A DNA stretch of 35,777 nucleotides from Desulfovibrio sp. (lineage in GTDB: Bacteria; Desulfobacterota; Desulfovibrionia; Desulfovibrionales; Desulfovibrionaceae), in contig JAISMK010000071.1 in assembly GCA_031276785.1 (NCBI GenBank), positions 1 through 35,777 of the forward strand, given 5' to 3'. The notes beneath the pieces were generated by a model. The model was not told where the DNA came from. It saw only the letters and a program-made list of their open reading frames with translations, and ran no database searches. The translations under genes were made by a program, and so were the position numbers. Every line of letters starts with the position of its first letter. Position 1 is the first letter of the stretch. Below are positions 7,270 through 23,048 of the stretch, in pieces.

Positions 7270-7755
7270 ATGCCTATGGTACCCATTCCTCCCATTGTCG
7301 CCGGGGATGAAATTGTCAATCACGGGCCGAAAATTTTTGAAGACATCCAGGCGCGTCCCGGCGAAAAGGCGCTCATCACCATGCATACGGTTCCCTTTGA
7401 AGGCTCAGTCGGCCTGATCAACATGCTGACCGCGACCCGTCTGGTGCGCAAGGGCTATGACTTCACCATGCTGCTCTATGGTCCCGGCGTACTCATGGCT
7501 TCCAATACCCGGGGCTTCCCCAAGGTGGGGGACGAGGGCTTCGGAGGCAACCTGGCCTATAACAGGCAGCTTGCTACAATTATGAAAGAAGGCGGAAAGA
7601 TTCTGGCCTGTCGTTTCGCTATGAGCGCCCTGTACGGCATGCGCGAGGCGGACCTCCTGCCCGGCGTTCAGGCCATCCATCCCCTGGATGTCCTGGACTG
7701 CAGTCTTCTCCACCAGCGCGCCGGCGCCCTGATTATCTCAACATGGACCGTATAA
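7270..7755 (+). CDS. MSMEG_0572/Sll0783 family nitrogen-starvation response protein
   Basis: A 161-residue protein of the Sll0783/MSMEG_0572 family, a DsrE-like small-protein family known from the conserved Nit1 nitrilase clusters and raised under nitrogen starvation in Synechocystis. Family-like features are the N-terminal GEKALITMHTVPFEGSVGLIN segment, the LYGPGVLMA segment, GFPKVGDEGFGGNLAYN, and the AMSALYGMREADLLPGV segment. Its biochemical role is not known. The start has a clear AAGGAG (7258-7263) seven bases before ATG. It is the first gene after the sigma-54 promoter and heads the long plus-strand block. The usual next gene, a nitrilase, is absent and an amidohydrolase takes its place. 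Confidence 0.85.
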   Translation: MPMVPIPPIVAGDEIVNHGPKIFEDIQARPGEKALITMHTVPFEGSVGLINMLTATRLVRKGYDFTMLLYGPGVLMASNTRGFPKVGDEGFGGNLAYNRQLATIMKEGGKILACRFAMSALYGMREADLLPGVQAIHPLDVLDCSLLHQRAGALIISTWTV

Positions 7756-7797
7756 TAAAGGTGCCATTGCAAAATAAAATGCTCTACAGGAGACTAT

Positions 7798-8667
7798 ATG
7801 GAACGCTTCGATGCAAAGCATAAAGTTAAGCGTAAAGTGTTTGATGCTCATAATCACATTGGCTTTATGGAGGGCTTTCCGTACTATGGCCTGCCGAAAC
7901 CGGTTAATCCAACGGTTTACTGTGACAACGATCGCGCTGCCAAAATCAGGCAGATGGACGCCTTGGGAGTGGAGCGGGCCATTGTCATGTCCAATTACGG
8001 CATTCCGGACGCGGCCCAGCCCTTCGGGCTGAACCCGGTCGTTCTGGAGGCCTGCGCCCATCCTGATAAACGGATTCTCGGCGGGATATGGTTTTCTCCC
8101 CTGGCCAAGATGAAGGAGGCCAATGCCCGGTCCCTGAAGCTGGCCGGAGAGCCGGGAGTCAAGGTGCTCAAAGCCACCTGCCTCTTGGGCGGAACCTGGA
8201 ATCCCGAGGATTGGGACGGGGAAACCATGGCCATGTGGGAGGACATCATTGCCGTGGGCGAAAAGTATGACCATGTTTTTCATATTCATACCAGTCCGGG
8301 CGGCGGTTCAGACGTCAGCAACGGCATTAAGTTCGTCCGCGCCTACGGCAAGCGGGTTAAAGTGCATATTGTCCATTGCGGAGGAGGGGTTTCCGGGCAT
8401 ATCAAGTTTATCCCCGAGTTTTTCAAGCTCATTCAGGAGGAGTACAAGGTATACACGGACACCTCCTGGTCCGTCGGCTTCTGTACCCGCTACCTGTTTG
8501 AGGAAATGGAAAAGCAGGGAGTGGGCGACGATCGGGTTCTGTTCTCCTCGGATGAGCCGTGGTCGGATTTCTGGAGCGAATACTACAAATTTGAAGGACT
8601 CGGGCTTTCTTCCGAACTGAAGGACAAAATATTCTGGGGAAATGCCGAGAAATTATACGGAGTGTGA
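7798..8667 (+). CDS. Amidohydrolase-2 family metal-dependent hydrolase
   Basis: A 289-residue TIM-barrel metal hydrolase of the amidohydrolase-related (Amidohydro_2, ACMSD-like) family. Likely metal ligands are visible: His18 and His20 in DAHNHIG, His162/His164 in HVFHIHTS, His193 in IVHCGG, and Asp252 in SSDEPW. Lys122 or Lys125 might bridge metals in some relatives. The substrate could be an amide, ureide or carboxylic acid and cannot be read from sequence. It starts 42 bases after the Sll0783-like gene, with AGGAG in front. It sits where Nit1 clusters carry the nitrilase, so it may do the corresponding hydrolytic step. The gene is less GC-rich than its downstream neighbours. Confidence 0.85.
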   Translation: MERFDAKHKVKRKVFDAHNHIGFMEGFPYYGLPKPVNPTVYCDNDRAAKIRQMDALGVERAIVMSNYGIPDAAQPFGLNPVVLEACAHPDKRILGGIWFSPLAKMKEANARSLKLAGEPGVKVLKATCLLGGTWNPEDWDGETMAMWEDIIAVGEKYDHVFHIHTSPGGGSDVSNGIKFVRAYGKRVKVHIVHCGGGVSGHIKFIPEFFKLIQEEYKVYTDTSWSVGFCTRYLFEEMEKQGVGDDRVLFSSDEPWSDFWSEYYKFEGLGLSSELKDKIFWGNAEKLYGV

Positions 8668-8674
8668 TTGCCAG

Positions 8675-8788
8675 GAGCAGTTCAACTTTGAAAAAGTTGA
8701 ACTGCTCTGCAAGGATTTGCCTGTGAATCCTTGCCGAGCGATGGTCGCAGGCGAGCTTTGCTCGCCGTTAAGCAACCATCTCAAAGCG
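8675..8788 (+). repeat. Three-hairpin dispersed repeat, copy 2 (forward)
   Basis: Begins eight bases after the amidohydrolase stop. Hairpin 1 is perfect here (gagcagttcaacttt/aaagttgaactgctc), hairpin 2 is GCAAGGATTTGC/AATCCTTGC, and hairpin 3 is GATGGTCGCAGGCGAGC with GCTCGCC. The terminal aaaatgctctag end is eroded. It separates the first two genes of the block from the radical SAM gene. Confidence 0.88.
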
Positions 8789-8845
8789 AAATTGGTCAAG
8801 GCTGGCGACGGGGTGAAAATCGTCAACTGATGCGGATGAGCGGCT

Positions 8846-10420
8846 ATGGAAATGACCTTTTTGGATTATGTCTCCCTGCACAGCGGGGGGGCCAGGGTGG
8901 CCGACAGCCAGGGCATCCGCCGGGGAGGGGCCGGGCCGGCTGATGCCGGAGCTTATCTTATCCAGGGGCGGCCTCTGATGGTTCCGGCGTTGAGTCCGTC
9001 CGCCCGCCATTCCGAGTATGCCCTTGTGCGGGAGAACCAGCGCAGCAGGCTGGAGAGGAACGGGCGCTTTCTCTGTTACCTGGACCCGGTTCCCGCCGCC
9101 GGATTTTATCAGAAAAAGACCGCCGACGGCATTCCCTACCCCCAGATCGCGCGCCTGCACGGCAAGGACTGCCTGGCCTCCACCGTAATTCAGGAATGCG
9201 TCCGCTACAGCCATCCCCGGACCCGTTGTCGCTTCTGCGCCATCGGGGCTTCTCTGGAACGGGGCGCGACCATTCTGCGCAAAACCCCCGCCCAGTTGGC
9301 CGAGGTGGCGCTGGCCGCCCGGGAACTGGACGGCGTAACTCATGTGACCCTTACGGCCGGGACCACCGCCCCGCCCGACGCCGGCGCGCTGTACCTGGCC
9401 CGCTGCGCGGCCGCGGTGCGCGAGGCCGCCGGCCTGCCGGTGGAAATCCAGTTTGAGCCGGTGCGGGACTCTTCGTCCTATGCCCTTTTCCGGGAGCTGG
9501 GCGTGACGGATGTGGGTCTGCATGTGGAAAGCTTTGATCCCGCGGTGCGCCGCCGCGTTACGCCCGGCAAGGCGGAGATCGGCCTGGAGGAATATTTTGA
9601 AGCCTTTGCCCTGGCGGTTGACGTGTTCGGACGCAACAAGGTCAGCACTTACGTCATTCTCGGGCTGGGGGAGAACGAGCGGCTGACTCTGGAAGGATGC
9701 GCCCGGGCGGCGGCCTTGGGCGTGTATCCCATTGTGGTGCCTCTGCGCCCTCTGGTGGATTCCTGTTTTGCCCGGGCCAAACCCGTGGATCCCAAATACC
9801 TGGAGCGAATGTACCGGGCGCTGGGCCGTATCCTGCAAGAAAACGGATTGGCCGCAGAGTATAGTTCAGCGGGGTGTGCCCGTTGCAAGGCATGTTCTTT
9901 GCTGCAATTTACGGAACAGGAGCAGACTGCCGCCCAGCTTGGAAAAGACATAAACGCTGATAAAAAAGATATAAATATCCGTATTGCCGAAGATGAACGT
10001 GATAAAGATAGTTATATGCAAATACGCCATAGGGTTTTTGTGGAGGAACAAAAAATATTTCCCATATGCGACAAGGATGATCATGACGATGCCGCTGTTT
10101 ATATCCTTGCCCGCGTGCGGGGTGTTGCCGCCGGCGGTGTACGCTGCTACCCGCGCGGAGGCGGAGTCTGGTTCGGAGGCAGGCTGGCCGTACTCCCGGA
10201 ATTTCGGCAGGGATTCAATCTGGGCGTCCTGCTGGTGCGCGAGGCTGTGGACGTGATGCGCCGGACGCCCGGCGTCCGGCGCTTTCGCGCCGCCGTGCAG
10301 GACAGGAATGTGCGCTTCTTCTCCCGCCTGGGCTGGGAAAAACGGGGCAGGCCCTTTCTCTGGCACGGCTGGAAACATCAAATCATGGAATATCCGCTAT
10401 GCAAGAAGACGGGACAATGA
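8846..10420 (+). CDS. MSMEG_0568-type radical SAM protein fused to MSMEG_0567-type GNAT domain
   Basis: A 524-residue two-domain protein. Residues 1-355 match the MSMEG_0568/Sll0785 radical SAM family of Nit1 clusters. The unusual CX9CX2C cluster motif is at Cys118, Cys128 and Cys131 (CVRYSHPRTRCRFC), and three further cysteines (344, 347, 350 in CARCKAC) could bind an auxiliary cluster. Residues about 378-505 are a GNAT-type acyltransferase fold (IRHRVFVEEQKIF, GGRLAVLPEFRQG, NVRFFSRLGWE) like the N-terminal domain of MSMEG_0567 / Sll0786. In cyanobacteria these are separate genes; in mycobacteria the GNAT is joined to the AIR-synthase part instead. The joint, residues 364-412, is strikingly AT-rich. 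SD before ATG 8846 is poor. The reaction of this radical SAM family is unknown. Confidence 0.88.
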   Translation: MEMTFLDYVSLHSGGARVADSQGIRRGGAGPADAGAYLIQGRPLMVPALSPSARHSEYALVRENQRSRLERNGRFLCYLDPVPAAGFYQKKTADGIPYPQIARLHGKDCLASTVIQECVRYSHPRTRCRFCAIGASLERGATILRKTPAQLAEVALAARELDGVTHVTLTAGTTAPPDAGALYLARCAAAVREAAGLPVEIQFEPVRDSSSYALFRELGVTDVGLHVESFDPAVRRRVTPGKAEIGLEEYFEAFALAVDVFGRNKVSTYVILGLGENERLTLEGCARAAALGVYPIVVPLRPLVDSCFARAKPVDPKYLERMYRALGRILQENGLAAEYSSAGCARCKACSLLQFTEQEQTAAQLGKDINADKKDINIRIAEDERDKDSYMQIRHRVFVEEQKIFPICDKDDHDDAAVYILARVRGVAAGGVRCYPRGGGVWFGGRLAVLPEFRQGFNLGVLLVREAVDVMRRTPGVRRFRAAVQDRNVRFFSRLGWEKRGRPFLWHGWKHQIMEYPLCKKTGQ

Positions 10421-10836
10421 GCGTGCAGGCCAGGCACAGGGAAGGAGCGGTATTTGAGCTGTCCGCCGGACCCTTTGCCGCCCTCTCCGACAACAGCGCG
10501 GAATACGGGGGAACGGACAACGGTCCCCGGCCTTCGGAACTGCTGCTCTGGGCTGTTTCTTCCTGCCTGGGCCAGTCCATTCGCTACATGGCTCAGAGAA
10601 TGCGTAAAAATATTGAGGGACTGACCTTGGATGTGTCCGGCATCAAGGATCCTGGCAATTTTCGTTTCCGTGAAATCCGGGTGCGCCTGCGGACGACCGG
10701 AGACATTCAGGAACTCCGGAAGGTTCTCCGACTGGCCAAAAAATATTGCTTTGTCTCCAACAGTCTTGCAGTCCCCGTCAGCTATGAAGTTGTCGGAGAG
10801 GAAGAGGAAAGGGCCTACGACAACGAAAGCGGATAA
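10417..10836 (+). CDS. OsmC/Ohr family protein
   Basis: A 139-residue OsmC-like protein. Family features are GPRPSELLLWAVSSCLGQSI with Cys50 and a second cysteine, Cys111, in KKYCFVSNSL. This is the redox pair used by OsmC/Ohr proteins to reduce peroxides, though YhfA-like members have no assigned activity. I chose ATG 10417 because it overlaps the radical SAM-GNAT stop as ATGA; the track start at 10399 has no ribosome site and would extend the overlap. It may repair or protect a reactive intermediate or the Fe-S enzymes of the block, which is inference. Confidence 0.8.
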   Translation: MSVQARHREGAVFELSAGPFAALSDNSAEYGGTDNGPRPSELLLWAVSSCLGQSIRYMAQRMRKNIEGLTLDVSGIKDPGNFRFREIRVRLRTTGDIQELRKVLRLAKKYCFVSNSLAVPVSYEVVGEEEERAYDNESG

Positions 10837-11725
10837 CCCCTTGCGCGCGGCGCGGAAACTGCGGACTCCCTGCCTGTGGGGGGAGCTGTATCTGCCTTCC
10901 GGGGATCAGGACAAGCTGGCCGCCGTGGTCATCCTGAGCAGCAGCGCGGGAGTGTGCGACATCAGGGAACGCTATTATGCCGGTTTTTTCGCTTCCCGGG
11001 GGGTTGCCGCCCTGGCGGTGGACAGTTTTGGCCCGCGCGGCATAACGGAGACCATAACCGACCAGTCCCGGCTGGCGGAGGATGCTATGGAGAAGGATGC
11101 CTACGCGGCCTTTGCCCTGCTCTGCGCCGAGGAGAGGGTGGACTGCCGGAAGATAGCCCTCATGGGTGTTTCCCTGGGCGGCCTTGCGGTCCTGCGCACG
11201 GCCCTGACTGTCCGCAGAAGGATGTTCGCCCGGCCGGAACGGGATTTCGCGGCCCGCGCCGCCCTGGTGCCGCCCTGCCACATCCAGCAGAGGGATGCCC
11301 GCACGGACGGCAGGCCCCTGCTTGTCCTGCTGGCGGAGGAAGATGATTATACCGGCGTCGTCCAGCCTCTGATGTATGTGCGGCGTATGCGGGAGGCCGG
11401 CCCGGCGGACATCGTCCTGCGCGTATACCCCGGGGCCGGGCACTGCTGGGAGCTGGCCGGGCGGCCTGTTTTTCTGGAAGCGGCGGAAAACTATTCCGGC
11501 TGTCTGTGGTGGCAGGAGGACGACGGCCGGCTTACGGAGGCGGACAGCGGCCGGAGCATGGCGCAGGAGGAATTTGTCCTCCGGCGGCGGGAATTTTGCG
11601 CTCTGGGAGCCCATGCGGGCGGGGGCGGCAGGGAAATCAAACAGCGGGCGGCGGAAGATATCCTTGCCTTTCTGGAAGAACGGGCGGGATTTTCCGGGGC
11701 TGTCCTCGGGCGGGAGCGGACATGA
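10784..11725 (+). CDS. Dienelactone-hydrolase-like alpha/beta hydrolase
   Basis: A serine alpha/beta hydrolase of the dienelactone hydrolase-like group (COG0412-like). With the start used it has 313 residues: nucleophile Ser130 in GVSLGG, acid Asp187 or Asp188 in LAEEDDYTG, and His220 in GAGHCWE, in the right order. It begins as CLWGELYLPSG and AVVILSSSAGVCDIRERYY, as in relatives. The track start at 10631 reads through the OsmC gene and is unlikely. ATG 10784 still overlaps OsmC by 53 bases; TTG 10841, five bases after the OsmC stop, is an alternative (294 residues). An ester or amide substrate is expected but not identifiable. Confidence 0.75.
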   Translation: MKLSERKRKGPTTTKADNPLRAARKLRTPCLWGELYLPSGDQDKLAAVVILSSSAGVCDIRERYYAGFFASRGVAALAVDSFGPRGITETITDQSRLAEDAMEKDAYAAFALLCAEERVDCRKIALMGVSLGGLAVLRTALTVRRRMFARPERDFAARAALVPPCHIQQRDARTDGRPLLVLLAEEDDYTGVVQPLMYVRRMREAGPADIVLRVYPGAGHCWELAGRPVFLEAAENYSGCLWWQEDDGRLTEADSGRSMAQEEFVLRRREFCALGAHAGGGGREIKQRAAEDILAFLEERAGFSGAVLGRERT

Positions 11726-11943: not shown

Positions 11944-11955
11944 GGACGGAACGGC

Positions 11956-13359
11956 ATGGCGGACATCACCAGACGGATCCATCTTGTCAATGTGGGTTTG
12001 GAGGGATTCTTCCACGAGATCCGGGAACAGGGGACGCCGGCTGTGCATGTGGACTGGCGGCCGCCCGCCTCCGGGGATGTGGCCTTGATGCGTAAGATAG
12101 CCGCCCTGCGCGGCCCGGCGGTGGAAAAGGCCAATGCCGAGACCGTGGCCCGCATCAAGGCCGGCCGCCCTGTCTGGGTGGATGTCCAGCCCGCGGCCGA
12201 AGCCATTTATGGCATGGAGCGTAATGTTCTGCTGCATTCCGGGCCGCCCATTGATTTTTTCGATATGTGCGATCCTCAGCAGAGGGCGGTGGAGGCCGCC
12301 GCCATCTTTGAGGGCTGGGCGACGGATCGGGCTGGTCTCGCGGCCCGGCTGAAAAGGGGCGATATCCGGCTTCTGCCCAACTACGTCCTGGGCAGTGTGG
12401 GCGCCATGTGCGGCGTAATTTCCCCTTCCATGCCCGTGGTGGTAACCGAGAACGTCACCCGGGGCAACCGCTCCTGGACCACGTTCAACGAAGGCAAAGG
12501 CGCCGTCATCTGGATGGGCGCCTACAACGAGGAGACCTTCCGGCGCCTGCGCTGGATGCGGGACGTTCTGGCCCCCGGCCTGCGCGCCGCCTTGCGCGCC
12601 ACGGACGAGGGCATCGACATCTTTCCCATAATCGCCGAAGGCGTCCTCATGGGGGACGAGGTTCACGCCCGCAGCGCGGCCTGCACCCTTCTGCTTCTGC
12701 GCCGGCTGACGCCCCTGCTTCTGGCTGCCGATGTCGGCCGGGAAGCCATCCGGGAGATCGTCGAATTCATCGGCCGCAACAACCACTCCTTTCTGAGCCT
12801 GACCCTGACGGCCTGCAAAACCGTTGCCGACGCCGCCCACGGCCTGCCCGGCTCCACTGTGGTCACGGCCATGAGCCGCAACGGCGTGGATTTCGCCTTG
12901 CGCGTGGGAGGCATGGACGCCTGGTTCATTGCCCCCACCGCGCCCATGGACGAGGCCATTTATTATTCCGGCTACGGCCCCGAGGATGCCGCCGGCGACA
13001 TCGGCGACAGCGCCATTGTGGAAACCGTCGGCCTGGGCGGCATGATCATCGGGGCGGCTCCCAGCATCAGTTCCTTTGTGGGCGGCAGCATGCGGCATTC
13101 CCGGCGGGCCATGTCCGCCATGCGCTCTGTCTGCGCCGGGGAAAACCCGGCCTTTGCCCCCGGCTCCGTGGATTTTATGCCCGCTCCTGTGGGCATTGAC
13201 ATCCGCCAGGTCGTGCGCCTGGGGGTATCCCCCATCATTGACACCGGCGTGCTGCATAAACGTTCCGGCGTGGGACAGATCGGCACTGGCATCGCCAGGG
13301 CGCCCCTGGAAGCCTTCCGCAAGGCTCTGGCCGCCATGCCCCTGCCCCAGGAAAACTGA
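11956..13359 (+). CDS. DUF1116 protein (YlbE/AllG-like carbamoyltransferase subunit)
   Basis: A 467-residue DUF1116 family protein. E. coli YlbE (AllG) belongs here and acts with FdrA (AllF) and YlbF (AllH) as the oxamate carbamoyltransferase that splits oxalurate with phosphate into oxamate and carbamoyl phosphate. Visible family features are the N-terminal VHVDWRPPASGD, NYVLGSVGAMCGVISPSMPVVV, the central GEVHARSAACT-like GDEVHARSAACTLLLLRRL, IGRNNHSFLSLTLTACKT, and SVDFMPAPVGIDIRQVV at the C-terminal end. ArcC and fdrA follow directly, so the carbamoyl phosphate made would be used on the spot. No AllH-like gene (GPGLTPSHDD motif) is in the window. The carbamoyl donor need not be oxalurate. 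Confidence 0.88.
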   Translation: MADITRRIHLVNVGLEGFFHEIREQGTPAVHVDWRPPASGDVALMRKIAALRGPAVEKANAETVARIKAGRPVWVDVQPAAEAIYGMERNVLLHSGPPIDFFDMCDPQQRAVEAAAIFEGWATDRAGLAARLKRGDIRLLPNYVLGSVGAMCGVISPSMPVVVTENVTRGNRSWTTFNEGKGAVIWMGAYNEETFRRLRWMRDVLAPGLRAALRATDEGIDIFPIIAEGVLMGDEVHARSAACTLLLLRRLTPLLLAADVGREAIREIVEFIGRNNHSFLSLTLTACKTVADAAHGLPGSTVVTAMSRNGVDFALRVGGMDAWFIAPTAPMDEAIYYSGYGPEDAAGDIGDSAIVETVGLGGMIIGAAPSISSFVGGSMRHSRRAMSAMRSVCAGENPAFAPGSVDFMPAPVGIDIRQVVRLGVSPIIDTGVLHKRSGVGQIGTGIARAPLEAFRKALAAMPLPQEN

Positions 13360-13406
13360 AGGCCGGCGCCGAAAACCCCGCCGGCGGAAAATCCTGAGGT
13401 ATGCCT

Positions 13407-14354
13407 ATGCGAGTCAAACCAATCGCGGTTGTGGCCTTCGGAGGAAACGCGATTCTGGATGCCGGGGACGACGGCTCCTTTGCCGCGCAACTGGAAAAGG
13501 CCAAAGACGCCTGCAGGCGGATATTGTCCATTCTGCACAAGGGCTATCAGCTTATTCTGGTCCACGGCAACGGTCCCCAGGTGGGCAATCTGTTGATTCA
13601 ATTTGAAAAAGCAAGCGATATCATTCCCGCCCCTCCTTTGGACGCGGCAGTGGCTTCCACCCAGGGGCTGCTCGGCCACATGCTGGAAATCAGCATGCGT
13701 TCCGTTCTGGAGGAAGACCGTATGCAGCGTGAAGTGGCCACCATCCTCACCCAGGTGGTGGTCAGCGCCGACGACCCGGCTTTTGCCCGGCCGACGAAGC
13801 CCATTGGCCCGTTTTACACCAGAGAGCAGGCGGAATCCTACCGCGCTTCCGAGGGCTGGTCCATTGCCGAGGATTCCGGCCGGGGCTGGCGGCGGGTGGT
13901 CTGCTCCCCCCAGCCTCGCAAGGTGCTGGAACTCAGCACCATCAAGTATCTGGCCGCAAGCGATACCGTGGTGATTGCCTGCGGAGGCGGAGGCATCCCG
14001 GTTAACTACCGCACGGACAGCGTTGTCGGCACGGACGCGGTTATTGACAAAGACGCCACGGCCGCCCTGCTGGCCAGGAATATCGGCGCCGACCTGTTCA
14101 TCATCCTGACCGGGGTGGATATGGTGTTTCTGGACTTCGGCAAACCCACCCAGAGACCCGTTGAAGTCATGACTGTGGAGCAGGCCGGCAAATGGCTGGC
14201 CGAAGGGCAGTTCCCCGCCGGCAGCATGGGGCCTAAAGTGCGAAGCGCGGTGGAATATGTGGAAAAGGGCGGGCTGGAGGCGATCATTACCTCCCAGAAG
14301 GGTTTGATTACGGCAATGCAGCAGGGCAGAGGCTGTACCCGGATTGTCCAGTAG
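13407..14354 (+). CDS. arcC: Carbamate kinase
   Basis: Transfers phosphate from carbamoyl phosphate to ADP, giving ATP and carbamate, which falls apart to ammonia and CO2. The family motifs are all there: AFGGNAI, VHGNGPQVGNLL, STQGLLGHM, RRVVCSPQP, ACGGGGIPV, VIDKDATAALLA, LTGVDMVF and the C-terminal GSMGPKVRSAVEYV. The product is 315 residues, normal for ArcC. I prefer ATG 13407 over the track start 13401 because GAGG (13396-13399) then lies seven bases upstream rather than touching the start. Its stop codon TAG is supplied by the first bases of a dispersed repeat. Set between DUF1116 and fdrA, it makes this module energy-yielding. Confidence 0.95.
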   Translation: MRVKPIAVVAFGGNAILDAGDDGSFAAQLEKAKDACRRILSILHKGYQLILVHGNGPQVGNLLIQFEKASDIIPAPPLDAAVASTQGLLGHMLEISMRSVLEEDRMQREVATILTQVVVSADDPAFARPTKPIGPFYTREQAESYRASEGWSIAEDSGRGWRRVVCSPQPRKVLELSTIKYLAASDTVVIACGGGGIPVNYRTDSVVGTDAVIDKDATAALLARNIGADLFIILTGVDMVFLDFGKPTQRPVEVMTVEQAGKWLAEGQFPAGSMGPKVRSAVEYVEKGGLEAIITSQKGLITAMQQGRGCTRIVQ

Positions 14355-14425: not shown

Positions 14426-14471
14426 GGCGTCCAGCAACAATTGAGCAACAGATGCCTGTGGCGGTGGAATA

Positions 14472-15992
14472 ATGCGATACGTCATTGTGCGGAAAAATCA
14501 GTATCAGGATTCAGTGCGCCTGATGCAGATATCCCGGCGGGCCGGCGATCTGCCCGGCGTGGACAAGGTTCTTGCCCTGCTGGGAACGGACGGCAACAAG
14601 AAAATCATCTCTGATCTGGGGCTGATGGACGCCGCTGTGCGGGAGGCTACAGCCAACGACCTGGTGATTTGCGTGGAGGCCGAATCCGGGGAGTCCGCCC
14701 TGGCGGCGGTCGCCGCCGTGGATGAGGGCCTGGGGGGAACAGGGCGGGAGGAGGATGCTTGGCGGGAACGGCCGGCCTCCATAGAGCAGGCGGTGCGGGA
14801 GATGCCGGAGGCGAATTTCGCCCTCATTTCCCTGCCTGGCCCGCTGGCCAAGCTGGATGCCCTTGTGGCCCTGGAGCAGGGCCTCCATGTCATGCTTTTT
14901 TCGGACAATATGTCTCTGGAGGACGAGCTGGAGCTGAAGCAAAGCGCGGCGGCCAGGGATCTTCTGCTGCTGGGTCCGGACTGCGGAACGGCCATTATCG
15001 ACGGCGTGGCTCTGGGTCTGGCCAATATCGTCCGGCGCGGGGAAATCGGCATCGCCGCCGCCTCCGGTACAGGCATTCAGGAAGTTGTCAGCATCATTGA
15101 CCGTTTGGGCGGCGGCATCTCCCATGCCGTAGGAGTAGGCGGGCGCGATCTCAGTGAAGCCATCGGCGGCCTGATGATGCGCCGGGCCATTGGCGCTTTG
15201 GCGCGGGACCCCGCCACCAGGCGCCTCCTCCTGCTGTCCAAGCCCGGCGCCCCGGCAGTCATGCGCGCCGTTCTGGATGAGGCGGAAAAAACCGGGCTGG
15301 AAGTTGTAGCCTGCCTGCTGGGCGCGGATACCCGGCACAGCCGTCCGGGCATGGCCCTGGTTTCCACTCTGGAAGAAGCCGCCTTCGCCTGCATGGGCAA
15401 AGAGGTCCCTCCCTTCGTCGCGGATCAGGATCTGCGGAGGCGGGCCGCGGCCCTGGATCCCGGCAGAAAATATTTGCGCGGCCTGTTCAGCGGCGGCACC
15501 CTTTGCTATGAAGCCCTGTATATTCTGAAAGACGAACTGGAGGTGGCCTCCAATATCGCCGTGCGCGCTGATTTGAAGCTGCGCGAGGGGGAAAGGGGCC
15601 GGGCTCATTGCTGCATGGATCTCGGGGAGGACGAGTTTACCCGGGGCCGGCCGCACCCCATCATAGACCATGAGCTGCGCCGGGAGTGGCTGGCGGCGAA
15701 CATGGCCGATCCGGAGGTGAAGGTCATCCTCTTCGACCTGGTACTCGGCTATGGCGCAAACCGTTCCGGGGCGGCGGATCTGGTGGCCGGCCTGTCCGGG
15801 AGGCGGGAAGGCGGTCCCCTTCTTGTGGCCCATGTCTGCGGAACGCGGTCCGATCCGCAAGGACTGGGCGAACAGGAGGATATGCTCTCCCGGGCCGGGG
15901 TTCTGCTTTTTCCAACCAATGCCCAGGCGGCGCGGGCGGCCCTGGCCGTGATCCGCCTGAACGCGGAAACGAACTGCGGAGAAAGCGCATGA
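14472..15992 (+). CDS. fdrA: FdrA (AllF-like) carbamoyltransferase subunit
   Basis: A 506-residue FdrA-family protein with a succinyl-CoA-synthetase-like fold (CoA_binding then ligase-type domains). In E. coli FdrA/AllF is a subunit of oxamate carbamoyltransferase. Visible features are DSVRLMQISRRAG at the N-terminus, the ALISLPG and LLLLGPDCGTAIIDGVALGLANIVRRGEIGIAAASGTGIQEV core, GVGGRDLSEAIGG, the LFSGGTLCYEA segment, and the late RPHPIIDHELR and KVILFDLVLGYGAN segments. No CoA ligation need be involved. ATG 14472 has GGTGGA upstream. Together with the DUF1116 protein and carbamate kinase it forms the recognisable carbamoyl-phosphate module. The stop overlaps the next start (ATGA). Confidence 0.92.
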   Translation: MRYVIVRKNQYQDSVRLMQISRRAGDLPGVDKVLALLGTDGNKKIISDLGLMDAAVREATANDLVICVEAESGESALAAVAAVDEGLGGTGREEDAWRERPASIEQAVREMPEANFALISLPGPLAKLDALVALEQGLHVMLFSDNMSLEDELELKQSAAARDLLLLGPDCGTAIIDGVALGLANIVRRGEIGIAAASGTGIQEVVSIIDRLGGGISHAVGVGGRDLSEAIGGLMMRRAIGALARDPATRRLLLLSKPGAPAVMRAVLDEAEKTGLEVVACLLGADTRHSRPGMALVSTLEEAAFACMGKEVPPFVADQDLRRRAAALDPGRKYLRGLFSGGTLCYEALYILKDELEVASNIAVRADLKLREGERGRAHCCMDLGEDEFTRGRPHPIIDHELRREWLAANMADPEVKVILFDLVLGYGANRSGAADLVAGLSGRREGGPLLVAHVCGTRSDPQGLGEQEDMLSRAGVLLFPTNAQAARAALAVIRLNAETNCGESA

Positions 15993-17434
15993 ACGCCCAG
16001 GAAGAATTCCGGCAGGTCTTCGGCCCCGCGGTGTCCTTTGACCGTCAGATTATGGACAGCTATGACCACGATGCCGGCGAGATGCCCAGGGCGCTTATGT
16101 CTCTGGTCCGGCGCCGGCCGGACATGGTGGTGCTGGCCCGCAGCCGCGAGGATGTGGCCAGGGCGTTGGATCTGGCCAGGAAATACGGCCTGCCCCTCAC
16201 CCCCAGAGGGCAGGCCACCTCCGGCTACGGGGGGAGCATCCCCGCCAGGGGGGGCATTGTTCTGGATCTGTGTTCCTTCAACGCCCTTCTGCGGCTGGAC
16301 GTCCCCAACTCCTGGGCTGACGTGGAGCCGGGCATTGTCTGGGAGGAGCTTTCCCGCGCCCTTGCCCCCCACGGCCTGGACAACCGCGTCTGCCCGACCA
16401 GCGCCCCCTCCTCCACAGTGGGCGGCTGGTTCTCCATGGGCGGCATGGGCATCGGGAGTTTCGCCTATGGCTCGTTTTTGGATAATGTTCTGGAAATAGA
16501 CGTCCTGGCCTTTGACGGAACGCTCCATACCCTGAGCGGCGGGGACGCGGCTCTTTTTTACCAGACCTGCGGCGCCCTCGGCATAGTGGTCCGTCTGCGC
16601 CTTGCCTGCCGGGCGGCGGGCACTCCATTCACCCCGGCCGTCAGCCTGCCGGACGCCTCCGGCGTCATCCGCTTTCTGGACCTGGCCGGCCGGGATCTGC
16701 CCGTCTACTCCGCCTGCGTCCAGTCCGCCGGTTATTGTGAGCTGCGTGCCCGGGCAGAGGGGAAGGCCCCGCCCATATCCTCCGGCTTTATGGTGTCCCT
16801 GGCCCTCCTGGGCGCCGCGGACGGCGGGAGCGTCGCCGCCCTGGCCTCCGGCTGCGGCGGAAGCCTGCTGGACGAGGCCGTGGGCCGGGCGACCTGGGCG
16901 GACCGCTACTATCCAATGCGCCTGAAAAAGGCCGGGCCTTCGCTCCTGGCCGGCGAAAGCGTCATTCCCTTTGACGGCTTTGCCGGAGCCTGGGAGGATC
17001 TGCGGAAAACCCTGGGCGCTGACGGTTTCGGCCTGGAGGCCCATGCCGTCAGGGGCAGGCGTCTGGCGGTTCTGACCTATTGCCTGGACAATGCCAGGGA
17101 TTTTCTCTATCCCCTCCGCCTGGCCAAAGCCCTGATCCCCCTGCGGGTGGCCGCCCGTCACGGGGGCGGGCCCTATGCCTCCGGCATGTGGCTGGCCGCT
17201 CTGGCTCGGTCCCTGTACGGGAAGGAAAAATACCGGCGGGCGCTGGCCTTCAAGAGGCGGACCGACGATGGGGATCTCCTCAACCCCGGCACTCTGGAAG
17301 GCCCGCGCCTGCCCTTTACCCCCTTCAATCTGTCCCGCTGCCTGCTGGCCGGCGCCCGCATCGCCGCGCCCGTCGCGGCTCGCCTGACCTGCGCCAATAC
17401 CCGCCTGGACAGGCGGCAGGAGGACCGGCCATGA
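15989..17434 (+). CDS. FAD-linked oxidase, GlcD/2-hydroxyacid dehydrogenase type
   Basis: A 481-residue flavoprotein of the FAD_binding_4 (VAO/PCMH) group. The FAD-binding segment is PLTPRGQATSGYGGSIPARGGIVLDL, followed by VGGWFSMGGMGIGSFAYGSFLDNVLEID, and the C-terminal part ends in DDGDLLNPGTL, the usual GlcD/lactate dehydrogenase close. Such enzymes oxidise 2-hydroxy acids such as glycolate or D-lactate. The start at 15989 overlaps the fdrA stop (ATGA) with GGAG upstream; the track ORF from 15686 reads through fdrA and is wrong at its N-terminus. In this setting it could oxidise a ureido- or carbamoyl-hydroxy acid to the substrate of the FdrA module, standing in for the NAD-linked AllD. 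That is inference. Confidence 0.87.
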   Translation: MNAQEEFRQVFGPAVSFDRQIMDSYDHDAGEMPRALMSLVRRRPDMVVLARSREDVARALDLARKYGLPLTPRGQATSGYGGSIPARGGIVLDLCSFNALLRLDVPNSWADVEPGIVWEELSRALAPHGLDNRVCPTSAPSSTVGGWFSMGGMGIGSFAYGSFLDNVLEIDVLAFDGTLHTLSGGDAALFYQTCGALGIVVRLRLACRAAGTPFTPAVSLPDASGVIRFLDLAGRDLPVYSACVQSAGYCELRARAEGKAPPISSGFMVSLALLGAADGGSVAALASGCGGSLLDEAVGRATWADRYYPMRLKKAGPSLLAGESVIPFDGFAGAWEDLRKTLGADGFGLEAHAVRGRRLAVLTYCLDNARDFLYPLRLAKALIPLRVAARHGGGPYASGMWLAALARSLYGKEKYRRALAFKRRTDDGDLLNPGTLEGPRLPFTPFNLSRCLLAGARIAAPVAARLTCANTRLDRRQEDRP

Positions 17435-18612
17435 ATACTCGGGAAAATTATCCCCGCCGGGCGGAACAAGCCCTTTCCCCCCTTTCCGCCGAGGCGGCGG
17501 ATACCTGCGCCCGTTGCGGCTTCTGCAAAATACACTGCCCCACCTATCCCTTTGGCGGCGGATTTGAAACCTATTCCCCCAGGGCCAGGCTTCATTTCCT
17601 GCGGGCCTATTGCCAGGGCCGGGAAAAGCTGACCCCGGAATGGGTGGATCGCCTGTACCGCTGCACTTCCTGCGAGCGCTGCGAGGCGGTGTGCCAGACC
17701 GGCATTCCCCTGGTCCGGCTGTGGGAAGACATCCGGGCGGAAAGCGTGCGCAGGGGCCTGGGCCCGATGCCGGCCCACAAACGCGTCAGGGAGATGGCGG
17801 AAAAGTTCGGCAACCCTTACGGTGAAGATCCCTCCCGCCAGACCCATTGGCTCACCCCTGAACATACCCCCGCGCCGGAAGCGGAGACGCTGCTTTTCGG
17901 CGGCTGCACCGGAACGTACAAAATGCCCGGCATGCTGCGGACCGGAGTGGCCGTTCTGTCCCGCCTCGGCTTTGCCTTTACCTACGCCGGAGGCGAAGAA
18001 TGCTGCTGCGCCAGCCCCCTGCTGCGCACTGGGCAGGTGGACGCCGCCCTGTCCCTAATTGCCCGCAATCTCGATCTGTTCGCCCGCCGCAAGACGCGCC
18101 TTATCATCACGCCCTGCGGCGGCTGCTCCAAAACCCTGAAGAAGGATTATCCGCTCTACGCCCGGCGGTTGGGCAAACCCTTTGATATTCAGGTGATGCA
18201 TTTTTCCGAACTCTATGTGCGCCTGCTGCGGGAGGGCGGGTTGAAGCCCTCCCGGCCGGTGGACAAAACCGTGACCTTCCATGATCCCTGCCACCTGGGA
18301 CGCTCCCAGGGGCTGTTCCGGGAGCCGCGGGAGATCCTGGCGGCGATACCGGGCCTGCGCCTGACGGAGATGCCGGGAAACCGGGAGGCGTCACGTTGCT
18401 GCGGGGCCGGGGGCGGGGTGAAGGCCAATTATCCGCAGATGGCCGGGGACATTGCCAGAGACCGCCTGAGGGAGGCCGAGGCCACCGGCGCCGACTGTCT
18501 GGTGACCATGTGTCCCTTCTGTATGGGAAGTTTTAAACAGGCCATTGAGGAAAGCGGATCCTCCATCCAGTTGTGCGGCCTGGAGGAACTGCTTTGGGCC
18601 TCCCTGGAGTAG
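17431..18612 (+). CDS. CCG-domain iron-sulfur oxidoreductase, GlcF/HdrD-like
   Basis: A 393-residue electron-transfer partner of the preceding flavoprotein. Two [4Fe-4S] ferredoxin motifs are at Cys26/29/32/36 (CARCGFCKIHCP) and Cys78/81/84/88 (CTSCERCEAVC). Two cysteine-rich CCG-type segments follow: EECCCASPLLRTGQ with ITPCGGCSKTL, and FHDPCHLGR with SRCCGAGGGVKANYP. The protein is the same type as GlcF, LldE/LutA and the C-terminal part of HdrD. ATG 17431 overlaps the flavoprotein stop (ATGA) with AGGAGG in front. Electrons probably go to a membrane quinone or to a heterodisulfide-type partner; no membrane segment is present in the protein itself. Confidence 0.9.
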   Translation: MNTRENYPRRAEQALSPLSAEAADTCARCGFCKIHCPTYPFGGGFETYSPRARLHFLRAYCQGREKLTPEWVDRLYRCTSCERCEAVCQTGIPLVRLWEDIRAESVRRGLGPMPAHKRVREMAEKFGNPYGEDPSRQTHWLTPEHTPAPEAETLLFGGCTGTYKMPGMLRTGVAVLSRLGFAFTYAGGEECCCASPLLRTGQVDAALSLIARNLDLFARRKTRLIITPCGGCSKTLKKDYPLYARRLGKPFDIQVMHFSELYVRLLREGGLKPSRPVDKTVTFHDPCHLGRSQGLFREPREILAAIPGLRLTEMPGNREASRCCGAGGGVKANYPQMAGDIARDRLREAEATGADCLVTMCPFCMGSFKQAIEESGSSIQLCGLEELLWASLE

Positions 18613-18730
18613 GCCTTAAGGCCGGCAGGGCCGGCGGCGCGGCCGTCCCCCGGCGGGAGGGAAGGCCGCAAGGGTGGGCGCGCATGATCTTTGCGGAAAA
18701 ACGCCCGGAAAAAGCAGACGGAGAACGTCC

Positions 18731-19699
18731 GTGGCTGACGGCTTGGATCTTTACGCTATTGCCGAGGCCCTGCGCGGCTCGGAGGAATTCAGCAACAAAC
18801 GCCGCATTCCTTCCGTTGCCGGAATGTTCGCGGCTCTGGGCCAGGCTTTCGGCTTCAGAAACGGCGATGACGCCGCGCTGATTCCTCGGAACGGGGAATT
18901 CCTGCTCCTGGCCTGCGAGGGGATCCGGGCGGATCTGGTGCGGGAGGATCCCTATCTTGCGGGGCGTTGCGCGGTACAGGCCAATGTCAATGACATCTAC
19001 GCCATGGGCGGCTACCCCCTGGCCCTGGTGGATGCCGTCGGCGCTCCGGAGGAGGAGGTTGTCCGGCGCATCAGCCTGGGAATGCGGGATAACGCCGCGC
19101 GCTACAGAGTGCCGGTGGTCGGCGGGCACCTGCTGCTGACCAGAGAGGACTATTCCGTGTCCCTGGCCGTTCTGGGGCGGGCCGCGCGCTGCATTTCCAG
19201 TTTTGACGCCCGTCCGGAAGACCGCCTGCTGCTTGTCCGCAGGGACAACGGCATCCGGGTGGAAGGGCGGCGTTTCTGGAACTGCACCCTGCCCGAGGAC
19301 GACGCTTCTCTGCTCTCCAACCTGGAGCTTCTCCCCCGTTGCGCGGAAAGCGGGCTGGTGAAGGCCGGGAAGGATGTGAGCATGTCCGGCATTGCCGGAA
19401 CCTCCCTGATGCTGGCGGAAGGCTCCGGGATCGGCCTCAGCCTGTTTCTGGACGAGATTGCCGTGCCCGCCGCCTTTACGCTGTCCGAATGGCTGCTGGC
19501 ATTCCATTCTTATGGTTTTCTGCTGGCCGTGGCCCCAGGCAAGTTGGATCGCGTCCGGGATCTTTTTTCCGGCCGGGGATTGCGCGCGGCGGTAATCGGC
19601 GAGTTTTGCGAGGATCGCCGGGTCTGGCTGTGCAGCGGCCGGGAACGGAGCCTTCTCTGGGATCTTTCCTTGGAGCCTTTTGCCGGGGCGGGAGGGTGA
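18731..19699 (+). CDS. Sll0787-family AIR-synthase-like protein
   Basis: A 322-residue homologue of PurM/ThiL/HypE-type ATP-binding enzymes, closest in context and features to the Sll0787 family of Nit1 clusters (the C-terminal half of MSMEG_0567 in mycobacteria). The key segments are NGDDAALIP at 44-52, the NDIYAMGG motif at 87-94, VVGGHLLLTRED, and KAGKDVSMSGIAGTSLMLAEGSGIG in the second half. Relatives activate an amide or carboxylate oxygen with ATP. I chose GTG 18731 because GGAG lies seven bases upstream; GTG 18674 would add 19 unlike residues. Being here with the radical SAM-GNAT fusion and the Sll0783-like protein makes it the third diagnostic Nit1 member. Its reaction is unknown. Confidence 0.83.
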   Translation: MADGLDLYAIAEALRGSEEFSNKRRIPSVAGMFAALGQAFGFRNGDDAALIPRNGEFLLLACEGIRADLVREDPYLAGRCAVQANVNDIYAMGGYPLALVDAVGAPEEEVVRRISLGMRDNAARYRVPVVGGHLLLTREDYSVSLAVLGRAARCISSFDARPEDRLLLVRRDNGIRVEGRRFWNCTLPEDDASLLSNLELLPRCAESGLVKAGKDVSMSGIAGTSLMLAEGSGIGLSLFLDEIAVPAAFTLSEWLLAFHSYGFLLAVAPGKLDRVRDLFSGRGLRAAVIGEFCEDRRVWLCSGRERSLLWDLSLEPFAGAGG

Positions 19700-20460
19700 A
19701 GGCTCTGGAACCGGCCTGGGGGCGGACAAGCCGGTTCTATCTGCCCAACGAGGATGCCGCGGCGATCCGGTCCGCTCTGGGCGCTCTGGATGCCTTGCCG
19801 GAAAATCCGGTTTTCGTGGGAGGTTCCGGCATGGTTCTGCTGGAAGCCGCCCGGATGCTCTCCCCGGCGGCCTCCAGCCGCTATGTGGACATTGCAGCCT
19901 TCCAGTGCGCGTATTTCAGGCGTCTGCGCGACGCCTTGGCCGGGTGCGCCACGCCAGCCGCGTTGCGCCGCTGGTTCGCCCGTAAGGTCTATCCGGAGAT
20001 GCGCGGCCATTTTTTGGCCCGGGGCAGGGAATACGCGCTGCCCCAGGTCTGGCGCGCCCTGAGGGACATTTTCCGATGCCGCTTTTTTTTTGAGCAGGGG
20101 GCCTTTCTCGCCGCCCGGAGTGCGGCCGGCCGCGCGCTGGCGGCGCGGGAAGACATAGCCGTATGGCTGGCCGGCGCAAGGACCAGGCACGATTTCATAT
20201 ATCTGAGCAATGTCCCCGACTATCTGGATCCGGAAAAGGCGGAAGTATTGTTCGCGGCCTGCGCCCTGCACCGGGCGCCGACCTATGTGGCGCTGACCTC
20301 GGCCTGCGCGGATCAGCCGGCCGCGCACGCCGCCTGGCGGGCGGCCGGCTTCGCGCCCCATGCCTGCTGCGGGCGGCTGAACGCCCTGAACCGCGGTCTG
20401 GGTTCCGCCCTGCGCCGGGACTGGAACAGACCCGGAGAAATTTTTTTGCTTCTGCCTTGA
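19696..20460 (+). CDS. BtaA/DUF3419-like putative SAM-dependent transferase
   Basis: A 254-residue protein that I do not place with certainty. GTG 19696 overlaps the AIR-synthase-like stop (GTGA), so it belongs to the same translational chain. Residues 39-52 (VFVGGSGMVLLEAA) followed by VDIAAFQ at 64-70 resemble the SAM-binding glycine loop and acidic residue of class I methyltransferases, and HDFIYLSNVPDYLDPEKAEVLF at 166-187 resembles the conserved central segment of DUF3419/BtaA proteins, which transfer a 3-amino-3-carboxypropyl group from SAM. The match is by eye only. If right, the cluster carries a second SAM-using enzyme besides the radical SAM protein. It is not AllH: the GPGLTPSHDD motif is missing. 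Confidence 0.6.
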   Translation: MKALEPAWGRTSRFYLPNEDAAAIRSALGALDALPENPVFVGGSGMVLLEAARMLSPAASSRYVDIAAFQCAYFRRLRDALAGCATPAALRRWFARKVYPEMRGHFLARGREYALPQVWRALRDIFRCRFFFEQGAFLAARSAAGRALAAREDIAVWLAGARTRHDFIYLSNVPDYLDPEKAEVLFAACALHRAPTYVALTSACADQPAAHAAWRAAGFAPHACCGRLNALNRGLGSALRRDWNRPGEIFLLLP

Positions 20461-20473
20461 GCGTTGCGGGGTC

Positions 20474-20535: not shown

Positions 20536-20560
20536 ATGGAATAAAACAAGGAGAAAGGGC

Positions 20561-21529
20561 ATGATTTTCCCTCCAGCCTTCGGGCGGCCGTTCCGCGGGC
20601 TTCTGTCCGCGCTTTCGCTGGCCTGCGCTCTGGCCGCTCCAGCGGGCGCGGCCTCTTCCGCCCTGCGTCTGGCCTATCTGCAGAACGACCTGCACCACCT
20701 GGCCCTGTGGGTTGGCATGGAAAAGGGTTTTTTCGCCCAGGAGGGGCTGCGGGTGGAGATTGCCGGTATTTTTCGCTCCGGCCCGGAAATGATGACGGCC
20801 TTTGGCGCCGGCGCGCTGGACGCGGCCTATGTGGGCGAGGCTCCGGCAGCCATTGCGGCCGTCCGGGGCACCGCCCGGATCCGGATTCTCGCCCAGGCCA
20901 ACACGGAAGGTTCCTCCCTGGTCTGGTCGGAAAAGCCTCCGGCCGGTAGGAGGCAGGCCCTCATTGCCGTGCCCGGCGCCGGCGGCGTGCAGGATCTCCT
21001 TTTGCGCAAGGCTCTCCCCCTGCTGGGCCTGGAGGCCAAGGATGTGGAGGTCCTGGTCCTCAGCCCGCCGGAAATGCTGTCCGCGCTGGCTGTGGGCGAA
21101 ATTGACGCCTTTGTGGCCTGGGAACCATATCCCGCCAAGGCCGTGGCCACGGGCATAGGGCGGGCGGCGGCCTCATCCTCCCGCATCTGGCCCGGCCACC
21201 TGTGCTGCGCCCTGGTCATAACTGAAAAACTGGCCAAGGAGAGGCCGGGGGACGTCCGGACTCTGCTGCGGGTCCACCGGCGCGCCACGCGTTTTCTGGC
21301 GGAGAACCGGGAGGAATCCGTGGCCATAGCCGTCCGCTGGACAGGGATGGAAGCATCCGTGATCCGGCGGGCCATGGATAACGTCATCTACACGGACGAG
21401 CCGGATATTCCGGGCCTGGAGGCCTACCTTTCCTTCCTGCGGGATCTGGGCATCATTGCCCTGGACGATCTGCCGGGTTTCGCCCGCGCCCTGGTGGCCT
21501 GGGAATTTCAGGACAGGGGCGGGCGGTGA
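20561..21529 (+). CDS. SsuA/TauA/NMT1-like ABC transporter substrate-binding protein
   Basis: A 322-residue periplasmic binding protein of the NMT1/SsuA/TauA family, which take up sulfonates, nitrate/cyanate, or pyrimidines. A Sec signal peptide (LLSALSLACALAAPAGAASS) is followed by the family fold: HLALWVGMEKGFFAQEGLRVE, AFGAGALDAAYVGEAPAAIA, the IAVPGAGGVQDLLLRKAL segment, and EIDAFVAWEPYPAKA. No true lipobox is seen, so a soluble form is expected. AAGGAG precedes ATG 20561. It lies just upstream of its permease and ATPase. The ligand is unknown; an organic nitrogen compound fits the neighbours better than a sulfonate, which is inference. Confidence 0.9.
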   Translation: MIFPPAFGRPFRGLLSALSLACALAAPAGAASSALRLAYLQNDLHHLALWVGMEKGFFAQEGLRVEIAGIFRSGPEMMTAFGAGALDAAYVGEAPAAIAAVRGTARIRILAQANTEGSSLVWSEKPPAGRRQALIAVPGAGGVQDLLLRKALPLLGLEAKDVEVLVLSPPEMLSALAVGEIDAFVAWEPYPAKAVATGIGRAAASSSRIWPGHLCCALVITEKLAKERPGDVRTLLRVHRRATRFLAENREESVAIAVRWTGMEASVIRRAMDNVIYTDEPDIPGLEAYLSFLRDLGIIALDDLPGFARALVAWEFQDRGGR

Positions 21530-22281
21530 TGGTCCGGTCCTGCCTCGCCTTTCTCCTGCTGCTGGCTCTGTGGGAAATTGTCTGTCTGGCCGGGGTTCTG
21601 CCCTCCGCTCTGCTCCCTTCGCCGCCGGAGGCGGCGGCGGCCTTCCGGGAGCTTTTATCCGTGGGCATGCCGCCCGGCCGTCTGCTCGCCGGCCATGCCC
21701 TGCACAGCCTGGCGCGGGTTCTGGCCGGAGTCGGCCTGGCCGTGCTTCTGGGCGTGCCCGTGGGACTGGCCCTGGGCGCCTCCGGAACATTCCGGAGCTT
21801 CTTCCTGCCCCTGATCAATTTTTTCCGCCCCATTCCGCCCCTGGCCTGGATTCCCCTGGCCATTCTCTGGTTCGGCCTGGGGTTTTTCTCTTCCGTCTAC
21901 CTCATCTTCCTGGGAGCCTTTTTCCCCATCGCCCTGGCCGCCTGTTCCGGAGTCCGCGGCGTGGACCGGCTGTATCTGGATTCGCTCCGCGTCCTCAGAG
22001 CCACGCGCCGCGACATCTGGCTGAAGGCCCTTCTGCCGGGGGCCATGCCCTCCATTGTGACCGGCGTCCGGGTGGGCTTGGGCGTGGGCTGGATGACCCT
22101 GGTGGCGGCGGAATTCGCCGGGACCAGGGGCGGCTACGGGCTGGGCTACATGATCATGACCGCCAGGGATCTTCAGCGCATTGACGAGGTGGTGGCGGGC
22201 ATGGCGGCCATAGGCCTTATCGGCCTTGGCCTGGAGTTTATCCTGGAACGCGCCGCAAGGCGCCTGCTGCGCTGGATGTGA
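21526..22281 (+). CDS. SsuC/TauC-like ABC transporter permease
   Basis: A 251-residue BPD_transp_1-type inner-membrane permease. It has an N-terminal helix, the PIPPLAWIPLAILWFGLG segment typical of SsuC/TauC/NrtB, and the cytoplasmic coupling loop DSLRVLRATRRDIWLKALLPGAMPSIVTG (EAA-type loop). The gene starts at GTG 21526, overlapping the binding-protein stop; ATG 21529 directly follows and is an alternative. Its stop overlaps the GTG of the ATPase gene. Confidence 0.92.
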   Translation: MMVRSCLAFLLLLALWEIVCLAGVLPSALLPSPPEAAAAFRELLSVGMPPGRLLAGHALHSLARVLAGVGLAVLLGVPVGLALGASGTFRSFFLPLINFFRPIPPLAWIPLAILWFGLGFFSSVYLIFLGAFFPIALAACSGVRGVDRLYLDSLRVLRATRRDIWLKALLPGAMPSIVTGVRVGLGVGWMTLVAAEFAGTRGGYGLGYMIMTARDLQRIDEVVAGMAAIGLIGLGLEFILERAARRLLRWM

Positions 22282-23048
22282 CTGTGGCCGCCGGCTTGCT
22301 CCTTGAGGATCTGGAGAAGAGCTGCCCGGGGCCGGGCGGGTCTCCGGCCGTCAAGGTTCTGGACAAGATCCGCTTTACCGCCAGGGCGGGCAGCATAACG
22401 GGCATTGTCGGCCTGAACGGCTGCGGCAAGACGACATTGCTGCGCATCATCGCCGGCCTGGAACCGGCGGACGCGGGCCGCATCCGGCTGGAAGGGGAAG
22501 GAGCGGGCGGAATCGGCATGGTTTTTCAGGAAGTCGCTCTCCTGCCTTGGCGCACGGTGCGGAGGAATATCTCCCTGGGGCTGGAACTGAACGGCACGCC
22601 GGAGGCGCGGCGCGGGAGGATTGTGGAGGGCTTCCTCTCCGTCTTCGGGCTGGAGGAGAACGCGGACCAATACCCCAGAGAACTTTCCGGGGGCACGCGG
22701 CAGAAAACGGCCATCGCCCGCGCCCTGGCCCCCGGGCCGGGCGTGGTACTCATGGATGAGCCGTTCAGCGCCCTGGACGCCCAGACCAGGGACGGCATGC
22801 AGAAATTCCTGCTCCGGGTTTGGACGGAGCGGCGGGACACCATCCTTTTTGTTACCCATAATATTGAAGAGGCGGTGTACATGAGCGATCAGGTCGTCAT
22901 CATCACCCCCAAGCCCGCCCGAGTGGCGGCCGTTATTCCCGTTCCCCTTCCCCGCCCCCGCGACAAGACCGGCCCGGAATGCAACCTTCTGCGCCGGGAG
23001 ATATTCTCCATCCTCCATAAGCCGGGCGCGTCCCCGCGCATGGAATAA
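22278..23048 (+). CDS. SsuB/TauB-like ABC transporter ATPase
   Basis: A 256-residue ATPase that powers the preceding permease. Walker A is GLNGCGKTT at 45-53, the Q-loop is in GMVFQEVALLPWRTV, the signature is LSGGTRQKTAIARAL, Walker B is VVLMDEPFSALD, and the H-switch is FVTHNIEEAV. The MVFQEVALLPWRTV and HNIEEAVYMSDQVVI segments are typical of the nitrate/sulfonate/taurine class. It starts at GTG 22278 overlapping the permease stop. It is the last gene of the plus-strand block and ends two bases from the convergent DUF2157 gene, with no terminator between them. Confidence 0.93.
   Translation: MTVAAGLLLEDLEKSCPGPGGSPAVKVLDKIRFTARAGSITGIVGLNGCGKTTLLRIIAGLEPADAGRIRLEGEGAGGIGMVFQEVALLPWRTVRRNISLGLELNGTPEARRGRIVEGFLSVFGLEENADQYPRELSGGTRQKTAIARALAPGPGVVLMDEPFSALDAQTRDGMQKFLLRVWTERRDTILFVTHNIEEAVYMSDQVVIITPKPARVAAVIPVPLPRPRDKTGPECNLLRREIFSILHKPGASPRME

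Follow-up and report, generated by a model that had tools for sequence, protein, structure and literature searches.

In the window, by which we mean the whole stretch of 35,777 nucleotides of Desulfovibrio sp. analysed here, a radical SAM enzyme and a GNAT, which the majority of bacteria produce as two proteins, are encoded by one gene. Among sulfate reducers and related bacteria such joined genes are common. The questions raised by this locus are whether the joining is real, how old it is, and what the joined protein could do among its neighbours. The fusion is a real, old and recurrent architecture, in which a known uncharacterised enzyme pair stands in a new variant of its operon, and it is the operon setting that is the new part of the finding. 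In the portions of the open-licence literature available for the cluster and its gene names, no mention of a radical SAM-GNAT fusion was found.

The gene and its two domains

The fusion gene (8846..10420; this and all other window features below are on the forward strand) is a single frame encoding 524 amino acids, without an internal stop. Residues 11-355 (domain at 8876..9910) match the MSMEG_0568 radical SAM family TIGR04043 with 382.9 bits, cut-off 303.7, over positions 3-352 of the 354 in the profile. Residues 376-516 (9971..10393) match the MSMEG_0567/Sll0786 GNAT family TIGR04045 with 97.6 bits, cut-off 68.45. Both domains lie above the curated cut-offs within one open frame, as an earlier, sequence-only reading of this DNA had proposed, and judged by these family matches the protein is a NitD-like radical SAM enzyme joined in frame to a NitE-like GNAT. 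That reading would have given way to a stop or frameshift hidden at the joint, or to close relatives that all have two genes; the joint contains neither a stop nor a frameshift, and close relatives are also fused. As 27 other intact fused genes occur in at least eight Desulfobacterota families, the window fusion is not a sequencing error.

The AlphaFold model of the protein has a mean pLDDT of 93.1 and a pTM of 0.74, with residues 361-371 (9926..9958), the part with the poorest identity to relatives, below 50. The model suggests two well-folded domains with a flexible tether between them, whose relative placement is not firm at this pTM. The GNAT half matches the folds of SACOL1063, YjcF and ElaA, with TM-scores up to 0.92 by target length. 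The fold matches of the radical SAM half are more distant and include lipoyl synthase and NifB; its neighbours by sequence profile include ThiH and biotin synthase, in agreement with the fold matches. With lipoyl synthase and biotin synthase it would share the radical SAM fold and an auxiliary cluster, but the match is distant, without close sequence similarity, and the window family has a CX8-9CX2C core and a C-terminal CxxCxxCS as its auxiliary motif.

In the window protein the core motif is C118-x9-C128-x2-C131, and the radical SAM domain ends in C344-x2-C347-x2-C350-S351. The sequence-only reading had pointed to the CXXCXXC at 344-350 as a possible site for a second cluster. The motif is present, but it is not special to this protein: C118, C128, C131, G343, C344, C347, C350 and S351 do not vary in any of the 50 aligned relatives, fused or separate, and the radical SAM domain of essentially every member looked at, again of both kinds, ends in AGCxxCxxCS. 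By this conservation CxxCxxCS is a family hallmark and no peculiarity of the window protein, and it is reasonable to infer that an auxiliary Fe-S cluster is bound at C344/C347/C350. The acyl-CoA loop of the GNAT reads RQGFNLG, compared with the expected R/Q-x-x-G-x-G/A. It is altered across the Desulfovibrionaceae clade and near-canonical in most other fused proteins. Together with the long branch of the window GNAT (0.73, compared with 0.27 for its sister; the radical SAM branch of the window is not long), the departing loop indicates that the CoA chemistry of this GNAT may be altered.

Distribution and age of the fusion

Within the same family, 149 genomes were searched and gave five more long matches, 50-66% identical, each in one frame across both domains, and a scan of the collection gave eleven Desulfovibrionaceae loci, ten of them fused in frame. 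The exception, a Desulfovibrio draft genome (L028), has a stop after the first half and then roughly 200 bases of non-coding DNA that include an inverted repeat (approximately 11100-11300), before an ATG opens the GNAT; with the halves kept apart in this way, a covalent link between them seems dispensable in this genome. Among a sample of 395 Desulfobacterota genomes, 34 contain a match above the cut-off. Reading frames confirm the fusion in seven families (coded f2, f8, f10, f16, f32, f49, f56) and separate radical SAM and GNAT genes in five (f3, f12, f35, f62, f75); one further locus (L082), from a draft genome, has the look of a fusion interrupted by a frameshift. The fusion is thus found in at least seven Desulfobacterota families besides Desulfovibrionaceae.

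In other phyla the arrangement differs, much as the sequence-only reading had stated. The separate genes that it gave for cyanobacteria agree with PMC1199592, and in Proteobacteria the two relatives are adjacent but separate genes; the nitD and nitE genes of canonical operons share 4 bases or lie almost end to end. For mycobacteria it had described a GNAT joined to the AIR-synthase part, and actinobacterial canonical clusters do contain a GNAT-AIR synthase fusion. The radical SAM protein was found above the cut-off in 52 of 299 Mycobacteriales genomes, mostly in open frames of about unfused length. Longer open frames in seven of these genomes were checked, and all are unfused to the GNAT; in six of the seven the GNAT is joined to a longer downstream frame, and L099 shows this product to be a GNAT-AIR synthase. 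Actinobacterial tblastn matches that looked fusion-like at first are separate genes by their reading frames.

Trees were built separately for the two halves, from 67 and 65 sequences, with a quick search, so the fine branching is unsure. In both, the window falls with top support inside one Desulfovibrionaceae clade of eleven, ten of them fused and the other the split L028. The radical SAM tree places these eleven together with canonical nitrilase-type and actinobacterial proteins and apart from the fusions of other Desulfobacterota. Constraining every fused protein to one clade is rejected (AU test, p 6.8e-5), so fusion arose or was lost more than once. From the well-supported branches, the radical SAM tree requires at least four such changes and the GNAT tree at least two.

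The remaining evidence on age is the composition of the joint (about 9935-10080), which had been described as far more AT-rich than the genes around it and taken as a sign of recent joining. The description is correct: the GC content of 9935-10080 is 0.35 compared with 0.64 for the window, which puts it in the bottom 0.05% of stretches of that length. The whole run of AT-rich sequence spans 9875..10119 and so takes in the radical SAM end, the linker and approximately the first 45 GNAT codons. At the GNAT start, total and third-position GC are 0.37 and 0.31, whereas the remaining GNAT codons have 0.66 and 0.74. Similar AT-richness is found in three further stretches of the window, of which two lie at the ends of the adjoining amidohydrolase gene. 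In the other fused genes compared, the linker and the GNAT start have about the same composition as the gene around them. Residues 361-390 are only 3-30% identical to relatives, and residues 391-420, still AT-rich, reach 50-57%, as does the rest of the GNAT. Since the AT-richness is seen in the window gene only, with homologous codons underneath, it is a local peculiarity of the window genome; its cause could be a mutation bias acting locally or a small recombination.

A fusion formed lately in this lineage, with the AT-rich joint as its scar, would account for the low GC, but we consider it extremely improbable, and refuted by the fused relatives. The fusion is common to Desulfovibrionaceae proteins that are just 50% identical and to other families, the joints of these relatives are not AT-rich, the AT-rich stretch reaches well-aligned GNAT sequence, and the two half-trees agree on the same old clade. 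It is also very unlikely that the stretch marks an internal start from which free GNAT is made as well. AT-rich starts do occur in some genes here, such as the amidohydrolase gene, but the in-frame starts are without a clear ribosome site, the later ones lie inside the GNAT fold, and a search for an internal promoter or terminator at the joint found neither.

A nitrilase-free relative of Nit1C

The fusion gene is part of an operon (7270-23048) with all genes in one direction. It starts with a NitB-like protein of the MSMEG_0572/Sll0783 family (7270..7755; TIGR04044, 216.4 bits, cut-off 109.85), which is 81-86% identical in Solidesulfovibrio-type relatives and gave no match among solved structures. 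The next gene encodes an amidohydrolase family 2 protein (7798..8667; PF04909, 70 bits) and occupies the place of the nitrilase in Nit1C. The end of the fusion gene is overlapped by an OsmC-like protein (10399..10836; PF02566), and an alpha/beta hydrolase, dienelactone-hydrolase-like, follows (10820..11725, exact start uncertain; PF01738, PF00326). Three genes resemble those for oxamate carbamoyltransferase and its companion kinase: an AllG-like subunit (11956..13359; PF06545, 242 bits), a carbamate kinase (13401..14354; TIGR00746, 360.2 bits, cut-off 358.25) and an FdrA/AllF-like subunit (14472..15992; PRK06091, 427.6 bits, below the cut-off of 433). Downstream are a GlcD-like FAD-linked oxidase (15992..17434; PF01565, 116 bits), a GlcF/GlpC-like iron-sulfur protein with CCG domains (17419..18612; PF02754, PF13183) and a NitF-like, Sll0787-like AIR-synthase-related protein (18674..19699), whose best match, TIGR04049 with 302.4 bits, is below the cut-off of 321.3. 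A conserved protein without a family match (19690..20460) is 42-54% identical in Desulfovibrionaceae loci, where it also follows the AIR-synthase gene. The operon ends with an ABC importer of SsuA/NMT1 type by family matches, consisting of binding protein, permease and ATPase (20561..23048).

The N-terminal 49 or so residues of the AllG-like protein (11962-12108) match the C-terminal tail of FdrA, and the FdrA-like protein of the window ends before that tail, a shifted domain boundary.

The Nit1C cluster (nitBCDEFGH) was defined in PMC1199592, and its counterpart in M. smegmatis is MSMEG_0565-0572, or gpr. The window operon resembles it in holding NitB, NitD and NitE together, and possibly NitF in the form of its AIR-synthase-like protein. 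It differs in the fusion of NitD and NitE, in the lack of nitrilase, NitG and NitH, and in the added amidohydrolase, transcarbamoylase and carbamate kinase, GlcD/F-like oxidase, OsmC and ABC importer. There is no nitrilase in the operon and none above the family cut-off in the window genome (87% complete), nor was a nitrilase gene seen in any Desulfobacterota locus read; NitG and NitH have no match among the operon genes. From its gene content the operon is a nitrilase-free relative of the Nit1C cyanide and nitrogen-starvation cluster, with genes for energy gain from carbamoyl phosphate.

Grouped AllF-like, AllG-like and carbamate kinase genes are also a likeness to allFGHK of E. coli, where AllF, AllG and AllH together were demonstrated to be the oxamic transcarbamylase (PMC11326118). 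Unlike in E. coli, the window genes are linked to NitB, NitD, NitE and NitF, the operon contains no identified allantoin genes, and a search of the whole draft genome, 87% complete, did not turn up AllH. Four related genomes encode AllH, three within the cluster (G080, G112, G530) and one beside it (G026). In two loci (L100, L101) it lies between the GlcF-like and AIR-synthase genes, and the corresponding gap in the window, 18612-18674, has only about 60 bases.

Across the Desulfovibrionaceae loci read, NitB and the amidohydrolase, the latter 70-86% identical, are found in all but L033. The set of AllG, carbamate kinase and FdrA occurs in L029, L030 and L032, whereas L101 shows the end of FdrA. 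In most of the other Desulfobacterota loci with the fusion, the stretch read contains no FdrA, AllG or carbamate kinase, so these downstream genes do not always accompany the fusion. Other fused Desulfobacterota often carry an FMN-reductase-like gene, the importer and a GlcF-like gene in their stead. FdrA and carbamate kinase also occur in Pseudonocardiaceae and Ilumatobacter, there beside unfused radical SAM and GNAT genes, and most Pseudonocardiaceae loci read also have NitB and nitrile hydratase alpha and beta. These two subunits come right behind NitB, at the nitrilase place of Nit1C, in L036 (3481-5285) and related Pseudonocardiaceae loci.

Possible role of the fusion

Published work connects the cluster with nitrogen and redox. 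MSMEG_0565-0572 is induced via GlnR in nitrogen starvation and increases peroxide resistance (PMC6039565), some of its genes rise in nitrogen limitation (PMC4617892), and in Pseudomonas Nit1C goes with cyanide assimilation via the nitrilase NitC (PMC11049912). The sources consulted name no substrate, activity or reaction for NitD, NitE or NitF, proteins that are conserved from phylum to phylum and whose expression is induced when cells are starved of nitrogen.

The reading we lean towards, at a little below an even chance, is that the fused radical SAM enzyme and GNAT work on a shared pathway intermediate and that, in this nitrilase-free Nit1C, the nitrogen of the intermediate is released as carbamoyl phosphate. 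The adjacent importer would bring in a nitrogen-containing substrate. The radical SAM half would cleave AdoMet at a cluster bound by C118/C128/C131 and act on this substrate, with the C-terminal CxxCxxCS as the predicted site of an auxiliary Fe-S cluster. The tethered GNAT would acylate the same intermediate, or an amine precursor or product of it, from acyl-CoA, the AIR-synthase-like protein would provide a partner ATP-dependent step, and the tether would keep the intermediate local. Such tethering would be optional, because separate genes do the same job elsewhere. The GlcD/GlcF-like oxidase could then turn the product into an N-carbamoyl (ureido) acid of the oxalurate type, which the AllF/AllG-like transcarbamoylase would split to carbamoyl phosphate, with carbamate kinase yielding ammonia, CO2 and ATP. 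In support of this route, genes for AllG, carbamate kinase and FdrA adjoin the cluster not only in several Desulfovibrionaceae but also, as a parallel case, in relatives from Pseudonocardiaceae and Ilumatobacter. E. coli requires AllH, and its absence from the draft genome counts against the full pathway, whose last steps may be incomplete in the window organism. The departing acyl-CoA loop of the GNAT and its long branch also count against the reading.

That the two domains perform consecutive steps is plausible. A GNAT of this family is also joined to a pathway partner in MSMEG_0567, where the partner is an AIR-synthase domain instead of the radical SAM enzyme of the window. Two different fusions of one GNAT family therefore link it to both partners, and with fusion to the radical SAM enzyme in Desulfobacterota, to AIR synthase in actinobacteria, and adjacency in Proteobacteria, the "Rosetta stone" pattern indicates that the three proteins cooperate. 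The same pattern bears on a rival explanation, in which the fusion is mere convenience of a shared transcript: adjacent overlapping genes merged by stop loss or frameshift, with equal stoichiometry as the result and no channelling or functional gain. We hold this to be a real possibility, if short of probable. Merging is easy where nitD and nitE overlap or nearly touch, the fusion has been gained or broken up repeatedly, L028 is split yet keeps both coding regions, and the linker is short, variable and disordered; against it, the fusion was kept through the deep divergence of the Desulfovibrionaceae clade, and the second, different fusion has the same partner.

Another explanation places the radical SAM half among sulfur inserters of the lipoyl/biotin-synthase type, with the CxxCxxCS cluster as sulfur donor and an operon that makes or breaks an organosulfur compound. 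The fold neighbour lipoyl synthase, the profile neighbours ThiH and biotin synthase, a weak LipS2 match, the serine found after the invariant cysteines in every one of the 50 aligned sequences, and the SsuA-like binding protein and OsmC within the operon would all fit. The lipoyl-synthase match is however at fold level only (TM about 0.55 by target length), LipS2 scores 25.6 where the cut-off is 270, and the published phenotypes of the cluster are nitrogen and redox, so we regard sulfur insertion as improbable.

Extending the preferred reading, the nitrogen route through carbamoyl phosphate, beyond this locus is more doubtful, and we propose it with reserve. An energy-conserving, nitrilase-free Nit1C may exist, in which the NitB/D/E/F core leads to a nitrile- or ureido-type product and the nitrogen comes off as carbamoyl phosphate, without hydrolysis by nitrilase. 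Pseudonocardiaceae would use nitrile hydratase, AllFGH and carbamate kinase for this, and Desulfovibrionaceae the amidohydrolase, GlcD/F-like oxidase, AllF/G and carbamate kinase, with the NitD-NitE fusion recurrent in such anaerobes. A transcarbamoylase of known chemistry, together with a nitrile hydratase at the nitrilase place in another phylum, narrows the product class to a nitrile, amide or ureido compound, and this narrowed class offers a way to test what the cluster does.

A sigma-54 activator counterpart was not found in the window. In several relatives a gene for such an activator, which has a GAF domain, separates the importer from NitB (for example L100, 5770-7404), and by analogy with NitA of Pseudomonas (PMC11049912) a NitA-like role is possible.
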